Positions 10,317 to 15,731 of a DNA stretch of 24,318 nt are shown piece after piece. Numbering within the stretch: position 1 is the stretch's first letter; each line of letters begins with the position of its first letter. Below the pieces are notes generated by a model. It had not been told where the DNA came from and did not search any database. It saw only the letters and a program-made list of their open reading frames with translations. This stretch comes from a virus. A program made the translations under genes and the position numbers. The stretch spans positions 1-24,318 of the IMG/VR virus record IMGVR_UViG_3300005511_000083; one strand, written 5' to 3'.

Positions 10317-10782
10317 TCACCAGAAAATAAAAGCGGAATTCGTCGGAAATCTGCATAAGCACCTTGGAATTCCTGTTATCATGACGGATCAAGCAGCACC
10401 ACAACCTCCATATCCTTTCATCGGCTTTACATTTGTAGCGCCATATATCGATAGGTCACCGTACGGCAACCACTCCATTACGAACGATCGTCACAGGATC
10501 GAGAAAATGGCGGCGGTAACAATATCAATAACCTGTTACGCGAAGTCGGCACAAGATGCCTTCCGCATATCGGGGCAGGCACGGGACTGGTTTCGTGGGT
10601 ATGGGCGTGTATCTCTCAAGGATCAAGGGATTGTAGTTGTGAACCTGGAAGAGACGACGGCACGGGATACGCTGCTTACTTACGAATACGAGCGTAAAGT
10701 CGGCTTCGACGTCCAATTACGTTTGGTTGATATCATTGAATACAAGGAAGACATGATCATGAAAATTAAAACGAAAGGGTGA
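10309..10782 (+). CDS. Phage neck terminator-like protein (LIC_12616 / gp12-like)
   Basis: About 157 aa. I choose ATG 10309, preceded by GCGGGTGAGTG; the in-frame GTG 10303 adds only two residues. The pattern KHLGIPVIMTDQAAPQPPYPFIGFTFVAP, followed by a central beta region (MAAVTISITCYAKSAQDAF), then RDWFRGYGR and RKVGFDVQLRLVD near the end, matches the short proteins of myophage necks that cap the tail and sit before the sheath gene. The gene overlaps the previous stop. The following sheath gene starts just beyond its end. The family name is from memory. Confidence 0.7.
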   Translation: MIDHQKIKAEFVGNLHKHLGIPVIMTDQAAPQPPYPFIGFTFVAPYIDRSPYGNHSITNDRHRIEKMAAVTISITCYAKSAQDAFRISGQARDWFRGYGRVSLKDQGIVVVNLEETTARDTLLTYEYERKVGFDVQLRLVDIIEYKEDMIMKIKTKG

Positions 10783-10787
10783 GGCAT

Positions 10788-11798
10788 TTGGGTACACTCA
10801 AGGACGTTACAGTTACTATCGACCTTGTCCAACCGATAGGGCGCAAAGGTTTTGGTACGCCGTTGATTTATGGCACCAAGGCAAAGGGGCATGAACTGAA
10901 ATATTATTATGAACTTAGTGAGGTTAAGAAAGATTTCACAGACAAAACACCAGAGTATGAAGCAGCTAAAGTGATTTTTGAACAAGGAGATAACCGCCCA
11001 GAAAAGATCGCTATTGCTTGCCGTGACTCAGTGGTGAAAGATGGGCTTGTTACGGATGTGCTCGAAACACTACTCGATAAAGATTGGTACTTCCTGATTA
11101 GCACTAGTGCTGTAAAAGAAGATGTTTTGAAGATTTCAGAAATGATCGAGCTTGACGGCTCGAAGATGTTCTTTACGAGAACAGATAAAGTCGAGGAAGC
11201 CGCAGAGATCAAGAAAGCTGGGAAAGAACGAACAGTTGTGTTCTATCACAATGATGTAAGCAAGTTTCCGGAATCGGGATTGATCGGCGCAGTCGGTGCA
11301 GCTCCTGTTGGATCGGTTACATGGAAGTTTAAAGAGATCAAAGGTATTTCACCAATGGAACTTTCTCTCGGTGAATTAACTGCCGTACATGAAGCGGGAG
11401 CAATTACTTACGTACAAAAGGCTGGCCGTGGTGGGACGAGCGAAGGAACGACATCAACAGGCGTCTATATCGACATCATCCACTCAAAAGACTATGTGAA
11501 GTTCAATATGGAATATCGACTACAGCAGTTGCTTAACAATACACCAAAGATTCCGTATACGGATGCCGGGATTGCTCTTATCGAGGCACAGTGTACAAGC
11601 GTGCTTAAAGAAGCATTCAATAACGGGATTATTGCAGCGGATGAGAATGGGCTCCCTCTGTATTCGGTGAACTTCAAGAAGCGCAGCGAGATTCCAGCAG
11701 ACATCCGGGCGAAGCGAGAATACAACGAGGGATCGTTCGAATTTGAACTGTCTGGCGCTGTTCACGGTGTGAAAATCAAAGGTTCGATCAGATTCTAA
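10788..11798 (+). CDS. Contractile tail sheath protein
   Basis: About 336 aa from TTG 10788 (AAAGGGTGAGG just upstream); GTG 10779 is an alternative overlapping the previous stop. The N-terminus GTLKDVTVTIDL is followed by a Gly-rich phase GRKGFGTPLIYG, then alternating helix/strand blocks and a C-terminal segment ending VHGVKIKGSIRF, typical of sheath subunits where the last strand reaches the neighbour. It is shorter than PBSX XkdK and resembles DUF3383-type compact sheaths. The tail tube gene follows immediately, as in contractile tails. I infer that the phage is a myovirus. Confidence 0.8.
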   Translation: MGTLKDVTVTIDLVQPIGRKGFGTPLIYGTKAKGHELKYYYELSEVKKDFTDKTPEYEAAKVIFEQGDNRPEKIAIACRDSVVKDGLVTDVLETLLDKDWYFLISTSAVKEDVLKISEMIELDGSKMFFTRTDKVEEAAEIKKAGKERTVVFYHNDVSKFPESGLIGAVGAAPVGSVTWKFKEIKGISPMELSLGELTAVHEAGAITYVQKAGRGGTSEGTTSTGVYIDIIHSKDYVKFNMEYRLQQLLNNTPKIPYTDAGIALIEAQCTSVLKEAFNNGIIAADENGLPLYSVNFKKRSEIPADIRAKREYNEGSFEFELSGAVHGVKIKGSIRF

Positions 11799-11815: not shown

Positions 11816-12214
11816 ATGTCAACTAATTACGATGCTATGGACGTAACGGTCATGGTGGATGAGACGTTCATTACGGGATTTGCGGACGGCTCTATGGTTG
11901 AAGGGGAGAAGGACGAGGAAAACTTTTCTGCATCCGTAGGAGCACAAGGGGATGTGGTTGTAAGTGAGGTGAACAACCCACTAGGAACAATTACGATCAC
12001 GCTGCAGCAAACATCGCCGTCCGTTTCTTTCTTGAATAAGCTGGCAAATACGAAAAAAGAAGTCCCGGTATGGGTGATTTACAACGGGACGCCAAAGGAG
12101 AAGTTCGGCGGAAGTCGTGCGCGAATTAAGAAGCCGGCTACATCGAGTTACAGCAACGAGGCGGAGGATAGAGAATTTGAATTACAAGTATTCGACTATA
12201 CGGTCGAGAACTAG
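11816..12214 (+). CDS. Tail tube protein (Phage_Tube_2 / DUF3277-like)
   Basis: 132 aa, ATG 11816 after AGTGAGGTGAG. Signature: NYDAMDVTVMVDETFITGFADGSM at the N-terminus, then GEKDEENFSASVGAQGDVVVSEVNNPLGTITITLQQTSPSVSFL, and a C-terminal ARIKKPATSSYSNEAEDREFELQ strand set. This is the pattern of the DUF3277 tail tube family ('itGfadGtmv...kdednfs..vGadG...rs..nd..GtititlkqTSps'). It polymerises inside the sheath and guides DNA. A strong terminator follows directly after the stop. Confidence 0.88.
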   Translation: MSTNYDAMDVTVMVDETFITGFADGSMVEGEKDEENFSASVGAQGDVVVSEVNNPLGTITITLQQTSPSVSFLNKLANTKKEVPVWVIYNGTPKEKFGGSRARIKKPATSSYSNEAEDREFELQVFDYTVEN

Positions 12215-12243
12215 GAACCGCGCTTGTAGCGGTTCTTTTTAAT
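12215..12243 (+). terminator. Rho-independent terminator after the tail tube gene
   Basis: Perfect 7-bp stem GAACCGC (12215-12221) / GCGGTTC (12229-12235), loop of 7, then TTTTTAATT. It begins the base after the tube stop codon. It would drop expression of the downstream tail genes relative to sheath and tube. Confidence 0.85.
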
Positions 12244-12272
12244 TCCAACCAACAAAAGGAGAAGTGATTTAC

Positions 12273-12536
12273 ATGGCAAAGAAGCAAGCAACTGAAACAA
12301 TTCAAGGTGTCGAGTATACATTCCAGCATCCAGGCGTGCGCGAGTCGGTGCGACTGCGTGACCGTTCCAAAAATAAAGCAGGGCAATTGGTAGAGGAAAA
12401 ATACTACAACGAACTGATGACACACGTAATTGTACAGCCAAAAGTAAGTTGGGATTACTTCGACGAACACCCAGAAGCATTCGACGATGTAATGTTGGCA
12501 GCAGTTGAGTTCCTAAACCCGCCCAGCGACAAGTAA
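12273..12536 (+). CDS. Tail assembly chaperone, upstream (zero) frame
   Basis: 87 aa, ATG 12273 after AAAAGGAGAAG (spacing about 8). GVEYTFQHPGVRESVRLRDR near the N-terminus and PKVSWDYFDEHPEAFDDVMLAAVEFLNPP near the C-terminus resemble XkdN-like and other short chaperones encoded between tube and tape measure. Such proteins coat the tape measure while the tube grows, and are usually made in two lengths by a programmed shift. Here a second open frame begins before the stop and continues to the tape measure gene (12526-12723). Confidence 0.85.
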   Translation: MAKKQATETIQGVEYTFQHPGVRESVRLRDRSKNKAGQLVEEKYYNELMTHVIVQPKVSWDYFDEHPEAFDDVMLAAVEFLNPPSDK

Positions 12537-12723
12537 TGCAGCCTATAAACAACGCGCCAAGGAGAATTGGATCTTCTGGCGCGTTGTTCTTTCTGACGGT
12601 GGCGTTACCTATGGTGATGCGTGTGAAATGGATTGGGATGAGCTTTACGAAGCGAATGCGGCTATCGACATACTAGCCGAGCAGCAGAAGCCAAAAGGTA
12701 AGAGATCTAAGGGGGCGAAATAA
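12526..12723 (+). CDS. Tail assembly chaperone, frameshift extension (+1 frame)
   Basis: This frame is open from 12517 to the TAA at 12721-12723 and has no usable start: although AAGGAG occurs at 12562-12567, no in-frame ATG, GTG or TTG follows at a suitable distance. The peptide (AAYKQRAKENWIFWRVVLSDGG ... MDWDELYEANAAIDILAEQQ) looks like the C-terminal extension of tail chaperones. A shift at CCC-A (12522-12525), moving Pro tRNA +1 onto CCA, would give a fusion of about 149 aa. A -2 shift would reach the same frame, but no re-pairing site is as good. The stop overlaps the tape measure ATG by one base. The fusion is inferred. Confidence 0.75.
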   Translation, partial: ATSNAAYKQRAKENWIFWRVVLSDGGVTYGDACEMDWDELYEANAAIDILAEQQKPKGKRSKGAK

Positions 12724-15700
12724 TGTCACTTAGGAAGATGACAGTGGATGTTGGATACAACATTTCAACGTCCCCTCTTGAAATGCTAGACAAGAGATTA
12801 AATAAGCTCTCCGGTGTAAATTCGAAGGTTTTTGACCGAATGGATGCAAGTATGGGCAAGGCTGGAAAGGCTATGCAAGGCATGGCGTCTAAGTCTTCCG
12901 ATATGACGACGGCGGTTTCAAAGTCGCAAGCAGCATCTGAACAAGCGGCAAAGGCAGCGCAGAAAGCAGCAGTGGCAAATGAAAAACTGACAAAGGCCTC
13001 TGATCGTGTTAAAGCAGCTAACGAGGCAGCGGCCAAGGCGACTGAAAAGGCGAGAGCCGCAACAGCGCGGGCGGCGGATATCGCAATGGTATCTACCAGT
13101 TCTCAAGATAAAGTAACCAAGGCGATACAACGCGCTCAGAGTGCAAATGAGAAAGCCACAACAGCGGCTGTTCGTGCTCAAAAGGCAGAAGAAAAATTCC
13201 GGATTGCTCAAGAGCAAGCGGCAGCAGCTGGTAATAGGGTTAAGCAGTCAGCTGCAAGCGTTACGGCAGCTGTTGAGAAACAATCAAAAGCAGCATCCCG
13301 CGCAGCTCAAGAAATGTCTAAGTTGCGTGACAAGTACGGTGACTTCTCAAACGGATCTTTAAAGGCACTAGATCAGCTTGATCAAGCATCGGGTAATGTT
13401 CGGGCAGCTGGCGTAGCAATGGGGGCGGCTGGCGGTATTCTGACCGCCGGGATCGGCTCGTCGATCAAATTGGCAGCAGATTTCGAGTCGTCCATGTCGC
13501 GGGTTGGCGCATTGTCCGGGGCTTCTGCCGAAGAAATGAAGCGGTTGACAGATACCGCGAAGCAACTCGGCGCCGCAACAGTATTCACGTCCAGCCAAGC
13601 AGCGGAAGGTATGCAATACCTGGCTATGGCTGGCTTCAAAACAAATGATACGATTGCGGCCATGCCGGGGTTGCTTGACACCGCAGCAGCCGGGCAAATT
13701 GACCTTGGGCGAGCAGCGGACATTACTTCCAACATCCTGACCGGATTTGGTATTGCAGCAAAGGATACAACAAAGGTAGCAGATATCCTGACCGCTACAT
13801 TCACCAACTCAAACACGGACTTGAACATGCTGGGCGATACCATGAAATATATTGCTCCTATCGCTAAAGCGTCCGGTCAGTCGCTTGAAGAGATGGCCGC
13901 AGCAACTGCGATGCTCGGTAATGCTGGTATTCAGGGCAGTGAAGCGGGTACGGCACTACGCGCAAGCATGATTCGACTTGCGAAGCCGCCAAAGGAAGCA
14001 GCGGACGTTCTAGATCAATTAGGCGTCAGCGTAGCAGATCAGGCAGGGAAGGTATTGCCGCTTTCCAATGTGGTTGGGCAGTTTGTGGAGAAGACAAAAG
14101 GTCTAACAGACGCGCAAAGATTGGCCGCAGTCTCTACAGTAGTCGGCACCGAGGCGGCAAGTGCTTTTCTCGCTCTGATGGATTCAGGGCAACCAGCGTT
14201 GGAAGGATTCCGGGGATCGCTTGAAAAGAGTGGCGGTGTCGCGAAAAGGATCGCTGACAAGCAACTCGACAACCTTAACGGGGCAATGGAAAAGGTGAAC
14301 TCCGCTATGGAAGGGGCAAAGCTTTCCATTGGTGAAACATTTATTCCAATCCTCACAAAACTAGCCGAATACGTCAATGGCTTAATTGATAAATTCAACG
14401 CATTGCCGGATGGCCTAAAACAAGGGATTGCTATTTTTGTTGCAATCGCTGGTGCGGTTCTGTTATTAGGTGGGGCTTTAACGATTCTAGTATCATTCAT
14501 TCCCAATGTTGTGGCCGGATTCAAAATGCTATCGGCAGTTCGACCAATCATCATGGGTTTATCGGGTCCGATGCTTGGAATCATTGCCGTGGTTGCTGCG
14601 GTCGCCGCAGCCGCTTATTTGATTATTAAGTATTGGAAGCCGATAACCGCGTTTTTCAAAAAACTTTGGACATCTATTTCGCAATGGTTTACGAATTCTT
14701 GGAACTCGATCTTAGGGTTCCTTACAAATACATGGAATTCAATCAAAACCACTGCCATAACCTTATGGAATTCAATCGTCAGCATGGTTATGGCGATAAT
14801 TTCACCATTCATTGAAAATATCCGAGCTTCATTCGCACGAGCTGTAAGTGGTGTCCGGATGATTTGGGAAGGGTTGAAGACTTTTTTCAGCGCCGCATGG
14901 GAAGTAATTAAGAACATCTTCTTAGGTGCAATTCTACTTATCGTTGATCTTTTCACAGGCAATTTCAGCGCAATGAAGGAGCACGCTGTACAGATTTGGG
15001 AAAATATCAAGGGAGTAATTGGACGAGCATGGGAAGGAATAAAACTCATTTTCTCCGGTACACTTGAGGCTATCAAGGGCGGCCTTGATGGAGCATGGGA
15101 AACCATTAAGACAGCAACTGAAACAACTTGGAATGGCATAAAATCTTTCTTCGAAAACACATGGAATGGCATAAAGGACATGAGCAGCAGAATATGGGAT
15201 GCGATTGTTGAGGCCATCCAAGGTGCGATTGATTGGGTAGCTAATCTGCCAAGTGAGATGTGGGAAATGGGTAAGAATGCGATACAAGGCTTTGTGGACG
15301 GTGTGAAGGGAACTGTTAGTGCTGTGGGGGATGCGGTATCGAATGTAGCGAATACCGTTAAGGATGGTATCACTGGCGCACTCGACATTCATTCGCCGTC
15401 GCGGGTGATGAAGGAACTCGGACAATACACGTCCGAGGGTTTCCAAATCGGTATCCAAGATAAGATCCCGGAAATTACGCACGCAGTGAATGGTATGGCT
15501 TCGGCTGCGACTTCGCCAGAAGTACCACAACCGGATACGCAAGGGCTTGCGCCAACATACAGTCACAGTTCCAGCCAAAGCAAAAGCATAATAGCACCAA
15601 AGATTGAAATAAAAATTGAAGGCGGCCAAGGTAATGCTAATGCAAAAGATGTAGCGCATGAAGTTGAGAAAAAGCTGGAACAGTTCTTCAAGTCATTTGG

Positions 15701-15731
15701 TATGAAAAATCCGCAGTATATCGAGGGGTGA
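12723..15731 (+). CDS. Tail tape measure protein, TP901 type
   Basis: 1002 aa, ATG 12723 in a TAATG overlap with the chaperone frame. Residues 60-200 form an Ala/Lys/Gln-rich coiled coil. The TP901 core starts near 240 (AADFESSMSRVGALSGASAEEMKRL) and runs through about 540. Two strongly hydrophobic stretches (about 568-592 and 616-637) are candidate membrane-inserting segments. From 649 to 825, Trp residues recur on a strict 11-residue register. An IHSPSRVMKELG segment (889-900) marks the conserved C-terminal part, cut or held at the baseplate in many tapes. It sets tail length and probably helps DNA entry. Confidence 0.95.
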   Translation: MSLRKMTVDVGYNISTSPLEMLDKRLNKLSGVNSKVFDRMDASMGKAGKAMQGMASKSSDMTTAVSKSQAASEQAAKAAQKAAVANEKLTKASDRVKAANEAAAKATEKARAATARAADIAMVSTSSQDKVTKAIQRAQSANEKATTAAVRAQKAEEKFRIAQEQAAAAGNRVKQSAASVTAAVEKQSKAASRAAQEMSKLRDKYGDFSNGSLKALDQLDQASGNVRAAGVAMGAAGGILTAGIGSSIKLAADFESSMSRVGALSGASAEEMKRLTDTAKQLGAATVFTSSQAAEGMQYLAMAGFKTNDTIAAMPGLLDTAAAGQIDLGRAADITSNILTGFGIAAKDTTKVADILTATFTNSNTDLNMLGDTMKYIAPIAKASGQSLEEMAAATAMLGNAGIQGSEAGTALRASMIRLAKPPKEAADVLDQLGVSVADQAGKVLPLSNVVGQFVEKTKGLTDAQRLAAVSTVVGTEAASAFLALMDSGQPALEGFRGSLEKSGGVAKRIADKQLDNLNGAMEKVNSAMEGAKLSIGETFIPILTKLAEYVNGLIDKFNALPDGLKQGIAIFVAIAGAVLLLGGALTILVSFIPNVVAGFKMLSAVRPIIMGLSGPMLGIIAVVAAVAAAAYLIIKYWKPITAFFKKLWTSISQWFTNSWNSILGFLTNTWNSIKTTAITLWNSIVSMVMAIISPFIENIRASFARAVSGVRMIWEGLKTFFSAAWEVIKNIFLGAILLIVDLFTGNFSAMKEHAVQIWENIKGVIGRAWEGIKLIFSGTLEAIKGGLDGAWETIKTATETTWNGIKSFFENTWNGIKDMSSRIWDAIVEAIQGAIDWVANLPSEMWEMGKNAIQGFVDGVKGTVSAVGDAVSNVANTVKDGITGALDIHSPSRVMKELGQYTSEGFQIGIQDKIPEITHAVNGMASAATSPEVPQPDTQGLAPTYSHSSSQSKSIIAPKIEIKIEGGQGNANAKDVAHEVEKKLEQFFKSFGMKNPQYIEG

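Follow-up and report, generated by a model that had tools for sequence, protein, structure and literature searches.

A predicted +1 programmed frameshift at a proline codon in a probable tail assembly chaperone gene of a contractile-tail Paenibacillus phage

The window, by which we mean the whole 24,318-nucleotide stretch of IMG/VR record IMGVR_UViG_3300005511_000083, is part of a contractile-tail phage and has the gene order sheath, tube, chaperone pair and tape measure, with all of its features discussed here on the plus strand. The tail sheath gene (10779–11798) matches phrog_205 (tail sheath; E 3e-78), and the tail tube gene (11816–12214) matches KPP10_Orf10 (PF11681; E 2e-8) and phrog_280. 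The first ORF of the pair (12273–12536, the zero frame) encodes an 87-residue G-like domain that matches phrog_1778 (E 9e-26); it starts at an ATG at 12273, has the ribosome-binding site AAAGGAG at 12256–12262 and ends in FLNPPSDK at a TAA stop codon (12534–12536; TAA or TAG in relatives). The second ORF (12517–12723), a putative T-like C-terminal extension that matches phrog_37484 (E 4e-16), lies in the +1 frame between TAA codons at 12514–12516 and 12721–12723, the latter overlapping the ATG at 12723 of the tape measure gene (12723–15731, 1002 residues; PhageMin_Tail, PF10145, E 2e-54). Its sole start codon is an ATG at 12628, with no ATG, GTG or TTG earlier. A previous sequence-only reading of this DNA had proposed a frameshift from these same boundaries and from the lack of a usable start codon in the second frame, and both observations are right on re-reading. 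The closest genome found is that of Paenibacillus alvei DSM 29 (L025), which encodes a zero-frame protein identical to that of the window. A terminator-like hairpin with a T-run lies between the tube and chaperone genes (12213–12237); its position is kept, and its sequence is not, in all seven intact loci with the window's type of slip site (CCC_A, see below) and in many loci of the TTT_C type. It may reduce the chaperone and tape-measure transcripts relative to those of the tube.

The codons of the overlap are AAC CCG CCC AGC GAC AAG TAA, and a codon-by-codon check finds +1 re-pairing solely at the CCC followed by A (CCC to CCA). The predicted shift site CCC_A is at 12522–12525, with GCG at 12526 as the next codon in the +1 frame; it is the site favoured by the sequence-only reading, and its CCC is invariant in the seven members of the window's clade. 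That reading had kept a −2 shift as an alternative, which would land in the same frame and is known from the tail chaperone of phage Mu (PMC5009743). Mu resembles the window in having a contractile tail and a second frame that is the +1 frame; the Mu slip is −2, however, and at none of the overlap codons (AAC CCG CCC AGC GAC AAG) could the same tRNA pair again two bases upstream. Reasoning on the sequences of relatives, their TTT_C and CCC_T sites also fit +1 and not −2. We consider −2 frameshifting extremely unlikely here and have dropped it, the site being a proline codon of the CCC/CCU kind followed in frame by another base, with no −2 alternative. Transcriptional slippage was ruled out, as the site lacks a long run of A or T.

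Viral contigs, genomes and phage records supplied homologous loci, of which 79 distinct ones were left once duplicates and damaged copies had been removed. The second domain, with a pattern of roughly W..W....G.TY.EA..M..DEL.EANAALD, is in the +1 frame in 79 of the 79 intact distinct homologues, and an in-frame fused version of the two domains was not found among those gathered. When 399 genomes of the class were searched in addition, nine gave matches, and the eight new loci share the +1 arrangement. An alignment of homologues had been proposed as a check on both the frame offset and the CCC-A site: the offset is kept throughout, but CCC_A is found in seven loci and the others have TTT_C, CCC_T or a start codon. 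In the CCC_A clade (seven phages) dN/dS is 0.03 for the zero frame and 0.07 for the +1 frame after the stop codon, as against more than 2 in two control frames, and the second domain in this clade is thus under strong purifying selection. These values bear on the idea that the second ORF has decayed, or that a sequencing error made the split, leaving the 87-residue protein as the only one that matters. Two visibly damaged copies in Paenibacillus sp. 2.1 (L029 and L032) would suit such decay; the reading as a whole is barely conceivable: the identical split is present in independent genomes, and the second frame evolves as a protein, with 24 of its 25 codons outside the hairpin described below being synonymously variable. 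The Paenibacillus sp. 2.1 assembly contains several near-identical copies of the prophage region (L019, L028–L032, L136 and L137), two of them with a damaged chaperone gene.

Another reading is that the second domain is made as a separate protein, through an internal start or by re-initiation past the zero-frame stop codon. There are 17 relatives with an in-frame start codon in the second frame, several with a Shine–Dalgarno-like sequence, and the window itself has an AAGGAG at 12559–12564. In the window's clade, however, the +1 frame contains no ATG, GTG or TTG from the slip site to 30 nt beyond the zero-frame stop codon, the ATC that follows AAGGAG is unconserved (GCC or TCC in relatives) and a start at the ATG at 12628 would remove the conserved NWxFWR part. 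Separate initiation is therefore highly unlikely for the window. The 17 relatives (L005, L006, L008–L014, L018, L036, L039, L041, L043, L044, L046 and L120) have no conserved slip site; the start codon is ATG in all but L010 (GTG), and the Shine–Dalgarno-like sequence (for example AGGAGG 6–9 nt upstream) is good in L036 and L046 and absent in L005. In these loci the second part may be expressed separately and, judging from their sequences, the second protein is probably initiated on its own, possibly as a replacement for frameshifting; two separate proteins can therefore apparently serve. Homologues with an independent start had been named in advance as the finding that would count against a frameshift; they exist in this sister clade and not in the window's clade, and the two clades are separate on the tree.

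The slip codon itself is conserved beyond what the zero frame asks of it. Among the seven CCC_A relatives, 59 of the 66 upstream codons with an identical amino acid vary synonymously, and CCC AGC GAC is invariant. The zero frame leaves the third base of CCC free, yet this base is fixed, as expected if slipping needs it. The preceding codon varies (CCG or CCA), which would alter the residue in the +1 frame, and the +1 frame is therefore not read upstream of CCC. For AGC and GAC dual coding alone is a sufficient explanation of the third-base conservation, both also being coding in the +1 frame, and the invariance of CCC represents few independent events because the seven sequences are closely related. 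The CCC is preceded by another proline codon (CCG CCC at 12519–12524; CCN CCC in 7/7 of the clade), and a peptide-bond pause at this pair is possible. CCC is the rarest proline codon in the window (8.2% of Pro codons). The tRNA search of P. alvei DSM 29 found 75 genes, in which proline is represented solely by UGG, three times (150 of 335 candidates were scored, so that the census is possibly incomplete); on the set found, CCC is read by the near-cognate tRNA-Pro(UGG). Native tRNA-Pro(UGG) pairs weakly with CCC (PMC4519876). In Escherichia coli a CCC-A site gives 1.5% of +1 product, and 4.2% without tRNA-Pro(GGG) (PMC8324841); the in vitro message in that laboratory study of +1 slippage was CCC-AGU, and the phage site is CCC-AGC. 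At the RF2 site, CUU has been reported as the most slippery codon, followed by CCC and UUU (PMC10885494).

A 12-bp hairpin that the sequence-only reading had overlooked lies inside the second ORF. Its 5' arm (AACAACGCGCCA, 12548–12559) begins 24 nt past the CCC and is paired with the 3' arm (TGGCGCGTTGTT, 12577–12588); over the seven CCC_A sequences 98.8% of cells are paired, and a single change is two-sided. The downstream region folds more stably than dinucleotide shuffles in 7/7 sequences (z −2.8 to −5.0) and more stably than synonymous codon resamplings in 7/7 (z −2.8 to −3.7; 0–3 of 500), and third positions vary less in the stem (three of six codons, compared with 24/25 outside the hairpin; p 0.016). 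The 12-bp hairpin is thus selected beyond its coding role. A further, outer stem, some 8 nt from the CCC, is paired in 69%, and most of this stem and the inner part of the hairpin are poorly conserved in the CCC_A clade. Downstream of TTT_C and CCC_T sites no consistent structure was found, the hairpin being consistent in the CCC_A clade alone. This distribution, together with the stability and pairing just given, would suit a stimulator of +1 efficiency at CCC_A, and at the cps site of Listeria phage PSA a stimulatory pseudoknot follows the CCC (PMC5009743). The start at 24 nt past the CCC, however, is beyond the usual spacing and long for a direct effect on a slipping ribosome, the nearer outer stem is the less well paired, and mRNA stability or translation of the tape measure gene are alternative roles; a stimulatory role is plausible, although we lean slightly against it.

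Across the 79 distinct homologues the slip-site classes are TTT_C (37), CCC_T (18), CCC_A (seven) and a second-frame start codon (17). The TTT_C sites, mostly TTT CTT, are at or near an F-L position in their 37 homologues. TTT is found in 24/24 clusters (below 80% similarity) against a background of 0.48 (P about 3e-8), a value that describes more than it tests as the presence of TTT partly defines the class. The CCC_T sequence is ACN CCC TTG in 18/18 and the CCC_A sequence is CCN CCC AGC in 7/7. A first-domain tree (few columns, rough support) places the CCC_A, CCC_T and in-frame-start groups in one clade each, with TTT_C as the probable ancestral slip site. A slip at TTT_C would change a third-position G-U pair to G-C; at both TTT_C and CCC_A it would trade a wobble third-position pair for a Watson–Crick pair, and the gain at CCC_T is less evident. 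Locus L195 has both TTT CAG and CCC TTC, and its relative L194 retains CCC TTC alone; both resemble EauM-23 of Exiguobacterium. The pair looks like slip-site turnover under way, with a candidate intermediate. Extra matches to CCNCCCAGCGACAARTA in viral contigs, other than those in the known phages L103, L107 and L110, did not match the chaperone when searched locally and are probably due to chance.

The two halves match phrog_1778 (first) and phrog_37484 (second), both PHROGs without a function, and searches against Pfam and the PDB by sequence or profile gave nothing significant. An AF2 model of the fusion has a pLDDT of 82. With Foldseek and a viral library several annotated tail assembly chaperones are near the top of the matches (probability 0.9–1.0), with E values of 0.005–0.06 that are weak; the same model gave no significant match in a PDB fold search and the second domain alone gave no match in a fold search. 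As in gene pairs of the G/GT type, the pair is flanked by the tube and tape measure genes, and its two ORFs overlap in different frames, the second having no start codon of its own in the window's clade. The identification made by the sequence-only reading is supported by the position between tube and tape measure, with a fold that resembles annotated chaperones at weak E values, and on position and frame arrangement the gene is likely to be a tail assembly chaperone. This contractile-tail phage of Paenibacillus very probably makes two forms of the tail-building helper protein via +1 slippage.

From the frame geometry and the conservation at the site, we are highly confident that the two ORFs form one tail assembly chaperone gene with a +1 programmed frameshift at CCC_A. 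Most ribosomes would make the 87-residue G-like protein. In a minority, the peptidyl-tRNA-Pro(UGG) on the rare CCC (12522–12524) would move one base forward to CCA, and these ribosomes would read GCG ACA AGT onward to give a 149-residue G-T-like fusion that stops just 5' of the tape measure gene. An apparent absence of tRNA-Pro(GGG) from the host should favour this slip, in which an unstable U-C wobble on CCC becomes a U-A pair; a pause may be added by the preceding proline codon and the AGC serine codon. During tail assembly the fusion would connect the tape measure and the tube, in the manner of lambda. Slippage and its efficiency, any role of the Pro-Pro pair or the hairpin and the lambda-like function are what we infer from these features.

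In phage lambda gpG and gpGT are made by a −1 frameshift at a ratio of about 30:1. As in the window, two overlapping ORFs lie between the tube and tape measure genes, and a short and a frameshift-extended product are expected. Lambda differs in its −1 slippery heptamer, whereas the window has a +1 single-codon CCC_A site and a contractile tail, and no sequence similarity was detected. Tailed phages use −1, −2 or +1 shifts in the tail chaperone gene (PMC5009743). Listeria phage PSA, which had been offered as a parallel, does use +1 shifts at proline codons (cps, ACA_CCC_UCC; tsh, CCC_UGA; PMC5009743), and resembles the window in slipping +1 on CCC in a Firmicute phage with RNA structure 3' of the cps site; these shifts, however, extend the capsid and tail-shaft proteins rather than a chaperone, and the hairpin spacing is unlike that of the window. 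The haloarchaeal myovirus HSTV-2 very likely expresses its tail chaperone by a +1 shift (PMC5009743); like the window it is a myoviral tail chaperone with +1, although the host is archaeal. Listeria phage B054 (gp16/gp17), AP45, EauM-23, LBR48 and LspM-01, which belong to the phrog_1778 family, have a homologous first domain and a second ORF in the +1 frame in the equivalent place. They differ in having TTT_C and not CCC_A, and in their records the two parts are separate hypothetical proteins or the second ORF is missing. The annotation of this ORF begins at an upstream ATG in B054 (gp17) and at an internal TTG in Pd_22F, and the AP45 and EauM-23 records leave it out.

To our knowledge +1 programmed frameshifts are few and have no general motif, and prediction tools perform poorly on them for this reason. 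Our literature search found no report of +1 frameshifting in the phrog_1778 chaperone family, and an earlier mention, for example in the B054 genome paper, is possible. Its homologous genes supply natural +1 sites by the dozen, of three kinds, and the slip codon can be pinpointed from the coding constraint on either side of it. A laboratory model, CCC-A read by tRNA-Pro(UGG), gains a natural counterpart in a host apparently without the cognate tRNA. This is a previously unannotated family of tail assembly chaperones, in which two function-less PHROGs, phrog_1778 and phrog_37484, are explained as the halves of one protein, and its members retain the +1 trick while exchanging the slip codon. A wider proposal, for and against which we judge the case to be evenly balanced, is that contractile phages and tail-like elements of Bacilli share a +1 family locked in direction, in which the offset would stay constant, the slip codon, each time one with weak third-position tRNA pairing and the ability to re-pair a base further on, would be repeatedly exchanged (TTT_C, CCC_A and CCC_T, with a start codon in one clade) and the hairpin would have arisen with CCC_A and tune efficiency.

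Of the 19 genomes in the P. alvei GTDB genus, 18 have a single-copy chaperone-like gene with ACN CCC TTG and a second frame at +1, and the remaining genome (G011) has a clade member with an in-frame ATG instead. The single-copy gene may belong to a tail-like element maintained by vertical descent; in P. alvei DSM 29 (L199) it is at about 12747–13010 on the minus strand, among baseplate, fibre and endolysin genes.
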